A stretch of 64,000 nucleotides of DNA from Verrucomicrobiales bacterium (lineage in GTDB: Bacteria; Verrucomicrobiota; Verrucomicrobiia; Limisphaerales; CAIMTB01): the NCBI GenBank assembly GCA_016795425.1, contig JAEUHG010000227.1, positions 1-64,000 of the forward strand, in the 5' to 3' direction. A model generated the notes under the pieces. That model was not told where the DNA came from. It saw only the letters and a program-made list of their open reading frames with translations, and ran no database searches. Every line of letters begins with the position of its first letter. The first letter of the stretch is position 1. Below are positions 59,142 through 64,000 of this stretch, piece after piece. Position numbers and translations under genes: made by a program.

Positions 59142-60122
59142 TCACGACCGCCACGGCAGGCGGCGGCGAAGGATGCGAATACCGCCGTTAGCCAGCAGCT
59201 CCATCTCCAGGAAACCACCATCCTTCGCGATCTGGATTCCCGGCGGCGATGGACACAAGACCAGGCGGAACGCGCGCCAGCCTCGTGCCTTTCTCAAGGC
59301 ACCGCTCAAGCGGCGGGCCGTATTGCCGAGGATTCCGAGTTCGGGCATGCCCGACAGGCAACGGCTCATTCTCAGGATCCAGGGCGAGTGCAGATGGCCG
59401 ATAATGGTGCACTCCAGTTGTCCCAGCCTCTCCGCCACCTTGGGTTCCGCCGCAAGGAACGGCAACGCCGTCGGATCATGGCAAAACAGAAGGATGCGTC
59501 GCCGAGAATCCAATCCCGAGAATACGTCGCCGAGTCTGGCCATGTAATCGGACCGCAGACGCTCCCAGGCGCCCCGTTCCTCGGAGAGAATTTCCGGGTG
59601 AAACGCCGGCAGTGCAATGAGACTCGAAGTCACTCCAATTAGGACGTGGTCCTCCAACGTCTGGGTCCAGAGCGGCGAAATACCCAATCCTGCCGTGGAA
59701 CGCTCCCAACTGGCGATCCGCAGGCCGCCGACGCCGCCAAACAGACTCATCTTCCCCAATTCGTGGTCGCCCAACGTGGCGAGAAAACGATCGCCAAAAC
59801 CAGACCTGAGTTTCTCTAGGCACTCCCGGGCGCTGGAAAATGCCGCATCGTCCGCCAATCCGATGAATCCACTGTCGCACGAGTAATCGCCGTTCGCGAT
59901 CACCCAGTCGGGACGGCCCGCGGCACGCAGGAAGGCATCGACCTGGTGATTGTGCGCGGTGGGATCCGCCAACCAGAAGAACCGACGGTAAAGGCTGGCG
60001 AACCACCGCAGGGTCGGACTGGGAATAGCACGGCGTTCCCATCCCTTACGGCTGCGTTCCGCGGCTCCTGCGTAATGGGGGTCGCTGAATACAACGAGGC
60101 GATGACGAATGGGTGCGTCCAT
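59142..60122 (-). CDS. Calcineurin-like metallophosphoesterase
   Basis: The 326-residue protein has the metallophosphoesterase motifs in order: VVFSDPHY (D-x-H), IANGDYSCDSG (GD), TLGDHE (GN/DHE), LLFCHDP and IIGHLHSP (GH-x-H). The expected dinuclear metal site is complete, except that Asp replaces Asn in the GNHE-type motif. Substrate is unknown; relatives cleave UDP-diacylglucosamine, cyclic nucleotides or phosphoproteins. No signal peptide is seen. The start at 60122 (ATG) was preferred to a start 33 bases upstream because the fold begins nine residues later. It diverges from the exported protein gene at 60294. Confidence 0.82.
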   Translation of the reverse strand: MDAPIRHRLVVFSDPHYAGAAERSRKGWERRAIPSPTLRWFASLYRRFFWLADPTAHNHQVDAFLRAAGRPDWVIANGDYSCDSGFIGLADDAAFSSARECLEKLRSGFGDRFLATLGDHELGKMSLFGGVGGLRIASWERSTAGLGISPLWTQTLEDHVLIGVTSSLIALPAFHPEILSEERGAWERLRSDYMARLGDVFSGLDSRRRILLFCHDPTALPFLAAEPKVAERLGQLECTIIGHLHSPWILRMSRCLSGMPELGILGNTARRLSGALRKARGWRAFRLVLCPSPPGIQIAKDGGFLEMELLANGGIRILRRRLPWRS

Positions 60123-60293
60123 GGGTCTTGAAACCGGGTGCGCTTCGGGCCTCACCCTGACCTGAACGATCTCGCGGATCGAGGACTGAAATCAGGGCAT
60201 TCGTGGCGACGAAATTTTCCTTCATTAACTCTGCAATATTTCGCCCTCATCTTACGTTATACACAGCGGACGGGTTCGCATTCACCAAGGAGC

Positions 60294-61406
60294 ATGGAAC
60301 CACCCAAATATAGTACGGTCCGTCGTTGGCTTCTGCGTTGGCTGATCCTCCTGGGGATCTCACTGGGCATCCCTCACCGGGCAGCACGGGCAGCGGATGA
60401 TCGCGGATCAGCAGGCGAGCGTGTGCGCGATTTTCTCGAGGATCCGCCGCGGTACGCATCCTTGCTGATACAGCGGACACTGGCGATTCGTCCCATATCC
60501 TTCCGTTCCGAACGCGAGGCCGCGCGCTTTCTGGATCAGTGGAAAGCAGGAACCATCAGCCCTCCGGCGGAAACCTCGTGGTTCGAGGTTCGGTATCAGG
60601 CTCAGCCTCCCGCATTCTTCCTTCGTGCACTCCATGACATCCATCAATTCGAGCAGGTTGGAGGGCGACGCCTGACTCCTCTTGCGGGGCGATATCATTC
60701 GGACTGGTGGTCGGTCTTGGATGTCGTGCCCGGACAGGTTCAGTTACTCAAGTCACTGGATGGTATCGATGTCAGTCCGAAGGGCAGCACCAACGCTTAT
60801 CACCAGGGAAACCAGCGGTGGGCGACCGAATTTCTAAGGCTTGGTATGTTTGAAGTCCTGGTGGAGACACTGCGTTGGCAGCCCGGGAATCACCAGTTCG
60901 AGGCCAAGTTGGAGTCCGGCGCCTCCTGCCGAGGTAGAGTCGAAACGGCAGAAGAGCAGGAATCGGTCGTTCTTTGGCTGGATTTTCCTGGATTGAGCCA
61001 GGGGAAGCGAATCCAGGTTTTGGGTGCCACACAGGAGGGGCGATGGCTGCCGCGCCGGCTAGTCGTGGATCGGTGGACCGGATCCTTGGAGGTCCCGGTT
61101 TTGTCACCCTACGCCACCTTTGATGTCCTCTCGCAGGTTCTGGCTGCTGAGCCCATTCCGCGGGATCGCTTTTCCCCGGAACCGTATCTCCGGACCAATG
61201 ATTTATGGGTCGAAATCGAGCATGGCAACTACTTCTCGCTCGATGTCATCGGGACCAACATTGTGCGTACACTGGCTCCACCTCAGCCCCAGGGTTTCGG
61301 GATGAGGCACTTGTTGCGGGCGGCCCTCTTGATCGCCGTCGGGGGCGCGGGAACGTGGCTGATCCTGCATTACGTTTTGGAATGGCGCAGGCGCTGTCGC
61401 ACCTGA
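60294..61406 (+). CDS. Exported protein with C-terminal membrane anchor, unknown function
   Basis: The 370-residue protein has a signal peptide (about 10-34, ending RAARA). A soluble domain of about 300 residues follows, without a motif that I recognise. One C-terminal hydrophobic helix (about 344-363) is followed by a basic WRRRCRT tail. This predicts a periplasmic protein anchored by its C-terminus. The start ATG 60294 is preceded by AAGGAG with only one base of spacing, which is tight; the frame extends upstream to 60138 but reads as non-coding. It precedes the Cys-rich exported protein gene by 42 bases on the same strand, and may be part of one group with it and the MauE-like gene. Confidence 0.7.
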   Translation: MEPPKYSTVRRWLLRWLILLGISLGIPHRAARAADDRGSAGERVRDFLEDPPRYASLLIQRTLAIRPISFRSEREAARFLDQWKAGTISPPAETSWFEVRYQAQPPAFFLRALHDIHQFEQVGGRRLTPLAGRYHSDWWSVLDVVPGQVQLLKSLDGIDVSPKGSTNAYHQGNQRWATEFLRLGMFEVLVETLRWQPGNHQFEAKLESGASCRGRVETAEEQESVVLWLDFPGLSQGKRIQVLGATQEGRWLPRRLVVDRWTGSLEVPVLSPYATFDVLSQVLAAEPIPRDRFSPEPYLRTNDLWVEIEHGNYFSLDVIGTNIVRTLAPPQPQGFGMRHLLRAALLIAVGGAGTWLILHYVLEWRRRCRT

Positions 61407-61448
61407 GTCGTTCCTGCTTCGGTAAAACTCAAAAGTAGAAAGGATCCT

Positions 61449-61862
61449 ATGAAGAGAAACGGTCGTCGCTGGAAGTCCGTTGGATGGGCACTGGTCGCTT
61501 TGGCAATGAATCACATCATGTCAATCCCGGCCCTTGCAGTGTCGTGCTTCAGTACGACATTAACGCCGGTTTGTGCATGCTCGGGCTGCGGATACTACGT
61601 CTTTTGCGGGGTCAAGGTCGGACCGACAGGAATCGTGGACGTCGCCTATTGTACGGGCAACAACCCTGGGTTTCTGGTGGTTGGCTCAGTGAGTACGACG
61701 CAAGGTCTGACTAGTACCACCTGCTATGTGTCGACCTGTGGAACGGCCATCCTGACCGGCGTTTGCTGCGGAGGCGCGCGGACGACAACCTCGGACTGGT
61801 CGCTCTACCAGGCGTGCCCGCCGTCGGGTGCCCGTTGTGGCCCCGGCGGGACTGGCGGTTGA
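61449..61862 (+). CDS. Small exported cysteine-rich protein, unknown function
   Basis: The 137-residue protein starts with a long signal peptide (about 1-31, ending IPALA). The mature part of about 106 residues holds 12 cysteines, in patterns such as CACSGC, TCYVSTC and VCCGG, and is rich in Gly and Thr. An even number of Cys suggests up to six disulfides. AAAGG lies about seven bases before the ATG, a good ribosome site. I recognise no family. A MauE-like membrane protein, whose relatives are tied to Cys-rich subunit maturation, lies 310 bases downstream, which suggests a partnership. Confidence 0.7.
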   Translation: MKRNGRRWKSVGWALVALAMNHIMSIPALAVSCFSTTLTPVCACSGCGYYVFCGVKVGPTGIVDVAYCTGNNPGFLVVGSVSTTQGLTSTTCYVSTCGTAILTGVCCGGARTTTSDWSLYQACPPSGARCGPGGTGG

Positions 61863-61866
61863 AGCA

Positions 61867-62175
61867 GTGAATCCGCCGCCGGGGACGATGACTTCGGGTT
61901 CGCACGAGAAGTACTCCAGTGACAACGACCCTGAGAACGGCCCAGACCCTCTGAGGCGAATCTACGGGTGCGAGTCACCGGTTCGAACACGGAATACCCA
62001 AGTCCTGCGAGCCACCACGTTAGTAGGGTGGGATCTCGAAGGGCGCTGGATAAGGCACCCTCAGAGTGATCTCCAGGGATTGGCTCGTGCGGTTGAATGG
62101 GAACCATCGTCTCCGGCGGTTGGTGGGTGGCCACCATTGATGAACTCAAAGACTAACGGCAAACGACATCGATGA
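61867..62175 (+). CDS. Hypothetical protein between Cys-rich and MauE-like genes (uncertain)
   Basis: A 102-codon frame from GTG at 61867 ends at 62175, and its stop overlaps the MauE-like ATG (ATGA at 62172-62175). The product is polar, with Pro, Asp, Arg and a basic NGKRHR end. It has a single Cys and no signal peptide or membrane helix. No family is recognised. The overlap with the next gene supports coding; the lack of a ribosome site and the unremarkable composition argue against. If it is not a gene, 61863-62171 is a 309-base gap with nothing else visible. Confidence 0.4.
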   Translation: MNPPPGTMTSGSHEKYSSDNDPENGPDPLRRIYGCESPVRTRNTQVLRATTLVGWDLEGRWIRHPQSDLQGLARAVEWEPSSPAVGGWPPLMNSKTNGKRHR

Positions 62176-62753
62176 GGACCGAGAGTCAGAATCCGCGGCT
62201 GCCTGGCGCCAGCACGAGTTCCCATCACGACACGGAGTGGACTCGCGGTGAGCGGACTTGGATCGGAATCGTGTCGTTGCTCTTCTCGAGCACCGGGAGT
62301 CTGAAGCTGTATGCAGGGCTTACTGGTGCAGGCATTCGGGAGGCTGCCGAGAAGGTGTTTCAGTTACCCATGACCGAGTGGTCGCTCGCAGTGGGCACGT
62401 TGGAGTTGATATGGGTGGTTTTGTTGGTGGCGTCGCCTGGACCAGGTGTTGCGTTGCGCATCGTGCGGTTTCTTTTCTCGGCGATCCTGGCATATCGGAC
62501 GTTATTTCACGCCTTCGATGGGGGGTATTGCGGTTGCCTGGGGGGATTGCTTTCGGACACGCCTTGGCAGAGTCAGGAGGGTCTCGTGCTCGGCAGTGTG
62601 GCAGTGGCGGGACTAGTGGTGAATGAAGGCCTGCTGGCCCTTTGGCGGCACCGTCAATCCGGGGTCAGGAGGGTAGCGAGCGGACGGTCCGTTGACCTCA
62701 TGATGACGCACCTTCGCGCCTCCGATGGCAACCAATCGGCGGATAGGACCTGA
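62172..62753 (+). CDS. MauE/DoxX-like four-TM membrane protein with CGC motif
   Basis: The 193-residue protein has about four hydrophobic helices (about 30-48, 70-90, 95-112 and 135-158). A FDGGYCGCLG loop places Cys120 and Cys122. MauE and related membrane proteins carry a similar short Cys motif and, in methylamine dehydrogenase systems, are needed for maturation of a subunit with many disulfides. Here the Cys-rich exported protein upstream is an attractive client. The assignment rests on layout and the Cys motif only. The tail after the last helix is basic and polar. Confidence 0.6.
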   Translation: MRTESQNPRLPGASTSSHHDTEWTRGERTWIGIVSLLFSSTGSLKLYAGLTGAGIREAAEKVFQLPMTEWSLAVGTLELIWVVLLVASPGPGVALRIVRFLFSAILAYRTLFHAFDGGYCGCLGGLLSDTPWQSQEGLVLGSVAVAGLVVNEGLLALWRHRQSGVRRVASGRSVDLMMTHLRASDGNQSADRT

Positions 62754-62760
62754 TACGATC

Positions 62761-64000
62761 ATGCATCGCGTCCAAACACGCGCCGGTGGGGTGGAATGCG
62801 CCATGAATTCGGCGACGTGGAACCGTTGGTTGCTCAGGGCAGCAAGGATGACGTGCGTTGGATTGCCGTTGTTCCTGATGTGGGTGCTGCCATTGGATTC
62901 CTTGTATCTCACGGGCGGTGACGAAGGCATCGAATTGACGAAGGGTGCCTATTTTGCGCGGCAGGGCTATTGGCCGGTCGAAGTTTGGAATGATCAGCCA
63001 CTCGCTCATACGCGGCTCTACGGGTGGTTGCTCCGTTGGCGACCCGACCCGTTGGGGCCACGCTGGTGGTCCATTGTGACATTCGCCGGTCTCCTGGTAG
63101 CGGTTCATGGGTTTACCTTTCATGTCCATCGAGACCATGCGGTGGCCCTGGCGGCAGTTGTAGTCCTGGCATGGTCACCCTTGGTACTGGACCTGTCGGT
63201 CGCAGCGATGCAGGAAATGCCAGCAACGGCGTTGGGGATGGTTTCCGTGTGGTTGGTGTTGCGCGCTGATGAGGATGAAAACCGGTGGCTTCTTCTGATG
63301 GCCGTGCTTTCCGCAAGCGCCGGAATCGCCATCAAACTGACCGCTGGCTTCTATGCGGTGGCCGCATTTCTCTTGTTGCTTCGCAGGCGCTGCGGCGGAA
63401 CCGACCTCGATCGGCGGGTTGAGCGGCAAATGATCGGTTGGCCCTGGTGGTACGCACTCGGTGTCGCCGTCGGCTGCTGGCTGGCCTTGTGGCTACTGGA
63501 TGGGCGACCGGTCGCCGCCCATCTCGCCAGTCATTGGGCGGCCCTGGACGCTGCGAGACGTTCCTCGGGTGCCGAATCGGCGGGACCATGGATGTTTCTC
63601 TTCGGGACGCATCCGTTTCTATGGATCTTTGCTGTCATTGGGGTCTCGGCCGCCTTGCGTTCGCGGCGCGTTATTGGGGGCAGGTGCTGGGATGGCTTTA
63701 TTTTAGTTGGAGTGGTCGCGTTGTTTCACGCCGTCCTGCGGCCTTGGTGGGAGTACTACGCCCTGACGTGCTGGGTAGGTCTGGTGCCAATTGCGGCAAA
63801 GGGATGGGTCGTGTCGTTGAAGGCCTGGCGCGGGTCGGACGGAAGGGCGAGAAGCCCGGAAGGGCGAGGGATGATCGCGTGGAGTGCCGCCGCTGGGGCA
63901 CTCGCCGCCGGGGTCTTCTGGGGGTGGGCGTGGCTGCACCAGTTGGTCGCTCTTCGGAATTCCCCGCGGGCCACGGATTCACGGTTACTCGCGTCGCTGC
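62761..64000 (+). CDS. GT39-like membrane glycosyltransferase, 3' end outside window
   Basis: An uninterrupted frame from ATG 62761 runs off the window end (413 codons seen). After the first helix comes YLTGGDEGIELTKGAYFARQ, with an Asp-Glu pair in the position of GT39/ArnT catalytic residues, and then WNDQPLAHTRLYGWLL. Around ten membrane helices follow. It is probably a polyprenyl-phosphate-sugar-dependent transferase. It starts seven bases after the MauE-like stop and may be co-transcribed. An in-frame ATG at 62803 is an alternative start. Confidence 0.75.
   Translation, partial: MHRVQTRAGGVECAMNSATWNRWLLRAARMTCVGLPLFLMWVLPLDSLYLTGGDEGIELTKGAYFARQGYWPVEVWNDQPLAHTRLYGWLLRWRPDPLGPRWWSIVTFAGLLVAVHGFTFHVHRDHAVALAAVVVLAWSPLVLDLSVAAMQEMPATALGMVSVWLVLRADEDENRWLLLMAVLSASAGIAIKLTAGFYAVAAFLLLLRRRCGGTDLDRRVERQMIGWPWWYALGVAVGCWLALWLLDGRPVAAHLASHWAALDAARRSSGAESAGPWMFLFGTHPFLWIFAVIGVSAALRSRRVIGGRCWDGFILVGVVALFHAVLRPWWEYYALTCWVGLVPIAAKGWVVSLKAWRGSDGRARSPEGRGMIAWSAAAGALAAGVFWGWAWLHQLVALRNSPRATDSRLLASL

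Follow-up and report, generated by a model that had tools for sequence, protein, structure and literature searches.

In an 8.8 Mb genome of the Verrucomicrobiota, a gene for an exported protein with 12 cysteines (C) lies between the genes of an exported, C-terminally anchored protein (A) and of a membrane protein resembling MauE (M). This arrangement, found in a stretch of 64,000 nucleotides (hereafter, the window), raises the question of whether the three proteins work together, and of what M would do to a neighbour so rich in cysteines. The reading favoured here, with a probability of roughly 0.6, is that A-C-M represents one type of a cassette, widespread in the order, for the production of small exported disulfide-rich proteins, in which M, together with A or with a second anchored family (B), would act on the cysteines of C.

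The A, C, and M genes and their products

The three open reading frames (ORFs) described in a previous sequence-only reading of the window are all present, on the plus strand. A (60294-61406) encodes 370 residues from an ATG at 60294, with an N-terminal signal-like segment (about 60294-60392) and a C-terminal hydrophobic segment with a basic tail (about 61311-61406). It is followed by C (61449-61862; 137 residues, signal-like segment at about 61449-61538) and M (62172-62753; 193 residues). A GTG ORF of 115 residues that overlaps the end of C (61828-62175, plus strand) is probably not a gene: no genus-mate homologue (best tblastn E=0.24) and no Pfam match were found for it. Upstream, a metallophosphoesterase-like gene (59142-60155, minus strand) diverges from A, a layout that makes the intergenic stretch 60156-60293 a likely promoter region; no sigma-70-like site was found in 60100-62800. 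Downstream, the glycosyltransferase-like protein noticed earlier holds up as a GT-C type enzyme (PMT_2, 28.4 bits vs a cut-off of 26.1), whose gene runs on the plus strand from 62725 to 64000 and on to contig position 64335, past the window. Farther downstream, the contig holds a pseudopilin gene with a DUF1559-like region (64262-65143) and a GT2 gene (65050-65913).

Neither A nor C matches any Pfam, NCBIfam, or PADLOC profile above threshold, which for C agrees with the earlier statement that it belongs to no known family. The 12 cysteines ascribed to C are all located after its hydrophobic N-terminus, and include CxC and CC motifs; a TGVCCGG motif lies at 61755-61775 (plus strand), and CCGG is shared by the window C family, with six detected members. 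The AlphaFold2 models of both proteins, obtained with the window protein and the homologue from locus L091 only, reached a mean pLDDT of 36 for C and 46 for A. Foldseek retrieved nothing at E<=0.001 for this A model, and the A profile found nothing below E=0.27 among PDB sequences. A LolA-like fold for A was discarded, its sole hint being a match (E=0.09) in one of 18 members to DUF4292, a family of the LolA clan.

M had been described as a MauE-type protein with a short Cys motif, which in MauE is CxC. The window protein itself remains below the cut-off of the Pfam MauE family (PF07291; E=0.0015, 19.3 bits vs 27), but the wider family does match it, with 18 of 26 members at E<=0.01 (best 1.6e-07), and keeps C120-G-C122 (62529-62537, plus strand), which stands in the window M within Y-C-G-C-L-G. 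In the alignment of these 26 sequences, K45, Y108, and C122 are invariant, and E78, C120, and G124 nearly so, the latter two cysteine and glycine positions being kept in at least 90%. Sequence comparison thus supports placing M with MauE rather than in an unrelated family. The family-averaged hydropathy resolves three of the four expected transmembrane segments, the one before CxC falling under the threshold, and the mean number of Lys plus Arg residues (3.96 at the N-terminus, 3.46 at the C-terminus, 1.50 in the first loop) would fit a topology with both termini inside.

Recurrence and joint absence among relatives

A single-sequence search of 58 genomes with the window C revealed two further intact homologues, both adjoining A: one in the genus-mate G004 (44% identity) and one in G032 (30%). 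A third candidate, in G024 (locus L004), was rejected, as it carries three internal stops and has no A next door. In G004, the A-C-M order is identical to that of the window, and M is followed by the same GT-C gene (33% identity). Identities between both genomes are 43% for C (43-44% over the comparisons made), 46% for A, and 46% for M. This conserved order, together with C identities of 59, 70, and 38 of 108 at the three codon positions, argues for C being a real gene. The C protein of G004 has 10 cysteines instead of 12, and the differing pair corresponds to residues 63 and 94 of the aligned stretch, a two-cysteine difference that fits what would be expected of a bonded pair.

On the other hand, another genus-mate, G003, keeps the row plsX-fabH-pilT-FeADH-GT2-PhoH without A, C, M, the GT-C gene, the pseudopilin, or the metallophosphoesterase, and its FeADH-PhoH interval contains a GT2-like gene only. 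G001 retains the metallophosphoesterase and FeADH genes as a pair, with PhoH on a different contig; A, C, and M are absent from both stretches. The rule, however, is not strict. In G032, A and C lie side by side, and no M was found at this locus or, among the 32 of 54 candidates scored, elsewhere in the genome.

Profile searches extended the comparison: of 320 genomes of the order, 43 carry an A homologue; a profile built from a wider alignment matched, among 288 genomes of the phylum, the window's own genome only. The resulting 47 A loci (517 kb, five weak A-profile places being left out) were compared with a small control set of 20 stretches (286 kb) from genomes of the same set. The A loci contain 53 ORFs for A, 34 for M, and 27 for exported Cys-rich proteins, vs none for A or M and two Cys-rich ORFs, both wrong-frame-looking, in the controls. 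Of the 53 A genes, 32 have an M gene on their own strand no more than 4 kb away (0 M in the 286 kb of control), and 23 of the 53 have C; several of the remaining ones are at contig ends. An exported Cys-rich ORF is the next gene in 16 of 44 cases for A and in 19 of 35 for B—the second family of anchored exported proteins, found in the loci of relatives—but in only one of 173 for control genes. The grouping proposed in the sequence-only reading thus exceeds what the control stretches show. As for individual places, one candidate A locus (G001:C47, L020) was not confirmed by the A profile, and at the start of contig G089:C77 (L019 1-60) an A ORF is cut short by a contig-end stretch, presumably of Nextera adapter sequence.

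The association is also observed from the side of M. Among 40 regions besides those already analysed, chosen by M alone as top-ranking places of the M search, an exported Cys-rich ORF lies within 2.5 kb of 28 of 48 M genes. A, B, or C is within this distance of 36 of them, a count in which the share of B is not independent, since B was first seen in such loci. For the other 12 M genes, this distance contains none of the three, and some of them adjoin a pseudopilin instead. Of the six window-type C genes detected in the A and M loci, five are accompanied by an M on their strand at a distance of up to 4 kb, but these loci had been selected through A or M. In the unbiased genome search with C, the expectation that C homologues sit beside MauE-like genes holds for one of the two intact homologues, that of G004, which adjoins M and A; in G032, C accompanies A only.

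M fusions and neighbouring genes

M can also be encoded in a single chain with A or with B. Ten fusion ORFs were found in eight genomes, two of them M-A and eight M-B. Homology between A and B is not detectable (hhalign probability 3.7%). In the eight fusions inspected, the last transmembrane segment of M is followed by a basic stretch, a new hydrophobic signal-like segment, and the A or B domain. Because the basic stretch and the second signal-like segment separate M from this domain, the latter should face the same compartment as CxC. The window's own genome also encodes a B protein (G000:C222, L212 1195-2286), with neither M nor C next to it over the stretch examined.

Regarding the surrounding genes, among the 47 A loci 10 hold a GT-C type, as do 12 of the 40 M loci and none of the 20 controls; pseudopilins are present in 24, 20, and 3, respectively. 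The glycosyltransferase and pseudopilin profiles had the window and a single M locus as their seeds. The glycosyltransferase association that had been suggested is thus corroborated for the GT-C types, whereas the difference for GT2 (8 of 47, 8 of 40, and 1 of 20) is not significant. The genes read earlier as a possible module of product, maturation factor, anchor, and glycosyltransferase do recur as a unit, but this unit is wider than proposed, reaching the pseudopilin and GT2 genes, and relatives use B. Next to a DUF1559-like pseudopilin, three loci (L143 7457-9232, L144 5102-6877, and L162 1265-3097) encode a conserved exported protein of about 590-610 residues, with TolB-like repeats recognised by eye; L143 and L144 also hold an M-like protein of 453 residues that includes a further C-terminal part.

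The prevalence of pseudopilins raises the alternative that M serves them or other envelope proteins, C being an extra passenger. M-like genes paired with a pseudopilin, with no Cys-rich gene detected between them (L148, L150, and L163), point in the same direction, and also show that A-C-M is not an invariable combination. However, the frequency with which C directly follows A or B, far above that of control genes, and its position downstream of M-B fusions (L054, L160, L173, and L176-L178) make this alternative improbable.

Diversity of C, nearest known systems, and proposed function

The exported Cys-rich ORFs kept in the A and M loci (58, after two that overlapped or were identical to M had been dropped) fall into several unrelated-looking families, and no convincing Pfam match was found for the 30 proteins compared. 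Their cysteine count is even in 38 cases and odd in 20, some of which may be wrong frames or include cysteines of the signal region. Tandem or duplicated Cys-rich genes occur in L064 (7865-8737), L149 (1865-2977), and L181 (5510-7893), those of L181 looking identical. In L149, the two Cys-rich genes are directly preceded by a gene (771-1868) whose exported product weakly matches OS_HP2 and choice-of-anchor-D.

NVEALA proteins (PF14055) of Bacteroidetes are likewise small, exported, Cys-containing proteins found near MauE-like genes. Nevertheless, PF14055 gave no match in the window's genome (the control, Bacteroides ihuae, did match) or in the 30 C proteins, and NVEALA as a whole word gave no literature match. 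For MauE itself, a role in forming the disulfides of the methylamine dehydrogenase beta subunit has been speculated, as repeated in PMC7794033. The mau cluster, in which MauE and MauD serve the maturation of this subunit, resembles the window locus in that a membrane protein of the MauE type is encoded next to an exported protein with many cysteines. It differs in that no MauD-like thioredoxin is present among the window-locus neighbours scanned, and in that no Pfam match links C to the MauA family; the MauA light chain (PF02975) was found in none of 116 genomes of the order, a search in which the control genomes gave no match either. To our knowledge, the mau cluster contains nothing that corresponds to A or B.

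The closest published precedent is found in Streptomyces, where, according to the same study, MauE homologues occur in three candidate RiPP families detected by decRiPPter, each with precursors of at least 8 cysteines (PMC7794033). A MauE homologue adjoining such a precursor is also found here, but in another phylum, and the likeness described is one of gene arrangement. Moreover, unlike in those families, C has a signal-like segment, the anchored exported partner can be fused to M, and glycosyltransferase and pseudopilin genes are neighbours.

This precedent lends some weight to a second alternative, in which the C proteins are secreted, bacteriocin-like antagonistic peptides that need disulfides, and A and B are their immunity or receptor proteins. 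In its favour, the C families vary by locus, with frequent tandem arrangements (L064, L149, and L161), diverse anchored exported A and B proteins accompany them, and the Streptomyces clusters have been proposed as RiPP clusters in PMC7794033. However, C evolves no faster than A and M between the genus-mates, and the fusions of A and B to M point to maturation over immunity. PADLOC, which covers anti-phage systems and not bacteriocins, found no match in eight proteins, and a defence role of the cassette was discarded on this result. Overall, antagonism is given a low probability.

Even less credit is given to the possibility that C coordinates metal ions through its cysteines, with M and A as a metal or redox sensor or an export pair. 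The CxC and CC motifs and the odd cysteine counts would be compatible with it, but C is exported, two of its cysteines differ as a pair between genus-mates, and M is related to MauE. Finally, a chance neighbourhood with no functional link, for which nothing speaks beyond the small control set of 20 stretches, is contradicted by the association counts, fusions, and joint absence, and is almost certainly wrong.

Returning to the cassette, A, C, and M co-occur, keep their order in the genus-mate G004, and are absent together in G003, and M is fused to A or B in some ORFs. From the sequences, we infer a route in which C would be the cargo, crossing the inner membrane with many free cysteines. The CxC pair of M, facing the periplasm, would oxidise or reshuffle these cysteines, and M would pass the electrons from C through the membrane. 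An exported domain tethered beside M, supplied by A here and by B elsewhere, would hold C or hand it over, and the neighbouring GT-C, GT2, and pseudopilin proteins would probably decorate or display the product. The order in G004, the joint absence in G003, the association counts and fusions, the two-cysteine difference, the predominance of even counts, and the disulfide role speculated for MauE in PMC7794033 argue for this cassette. The A-C pair of G032 without a detected M, the 12 of 48 M genes without A, B, or C, the sub-threshold Pfam score of M, the 20 odd counts, the lack of a MauD-like thioredoxin among the neighbours scanned, and the low-pLDDT models of A and C argue against it. A more far-reaching version, in which a large and diversifying set of exported disulfide-rich proteins would be made through dedicated M-A or M-B complexes, glycosylated, and displayed by way of a pseudopilin apparatus as an undescribed, self-contained envelope system, is put forward tentatively and considered unlikely.

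Among the titles and abstract beginnings matched in the literature, none describes this cassette. The bulk of research on bacterial disulfides is built on the general Dsb systems. If the proposal is correct, the cassette would represent a dedicated disulfide route, in which a MauE-like protein is paired with a cargo of its own and with a partner tethered nearby, sometimes within one chain. It would also provide natural substrates for MauE, whose role is still presented as speculative in PMC7794033, and a function for two unnamed exported families, A and B. These observations suggest that a bacterial group which has received little study makes disulfide-rich proteins by a production line not yet described.
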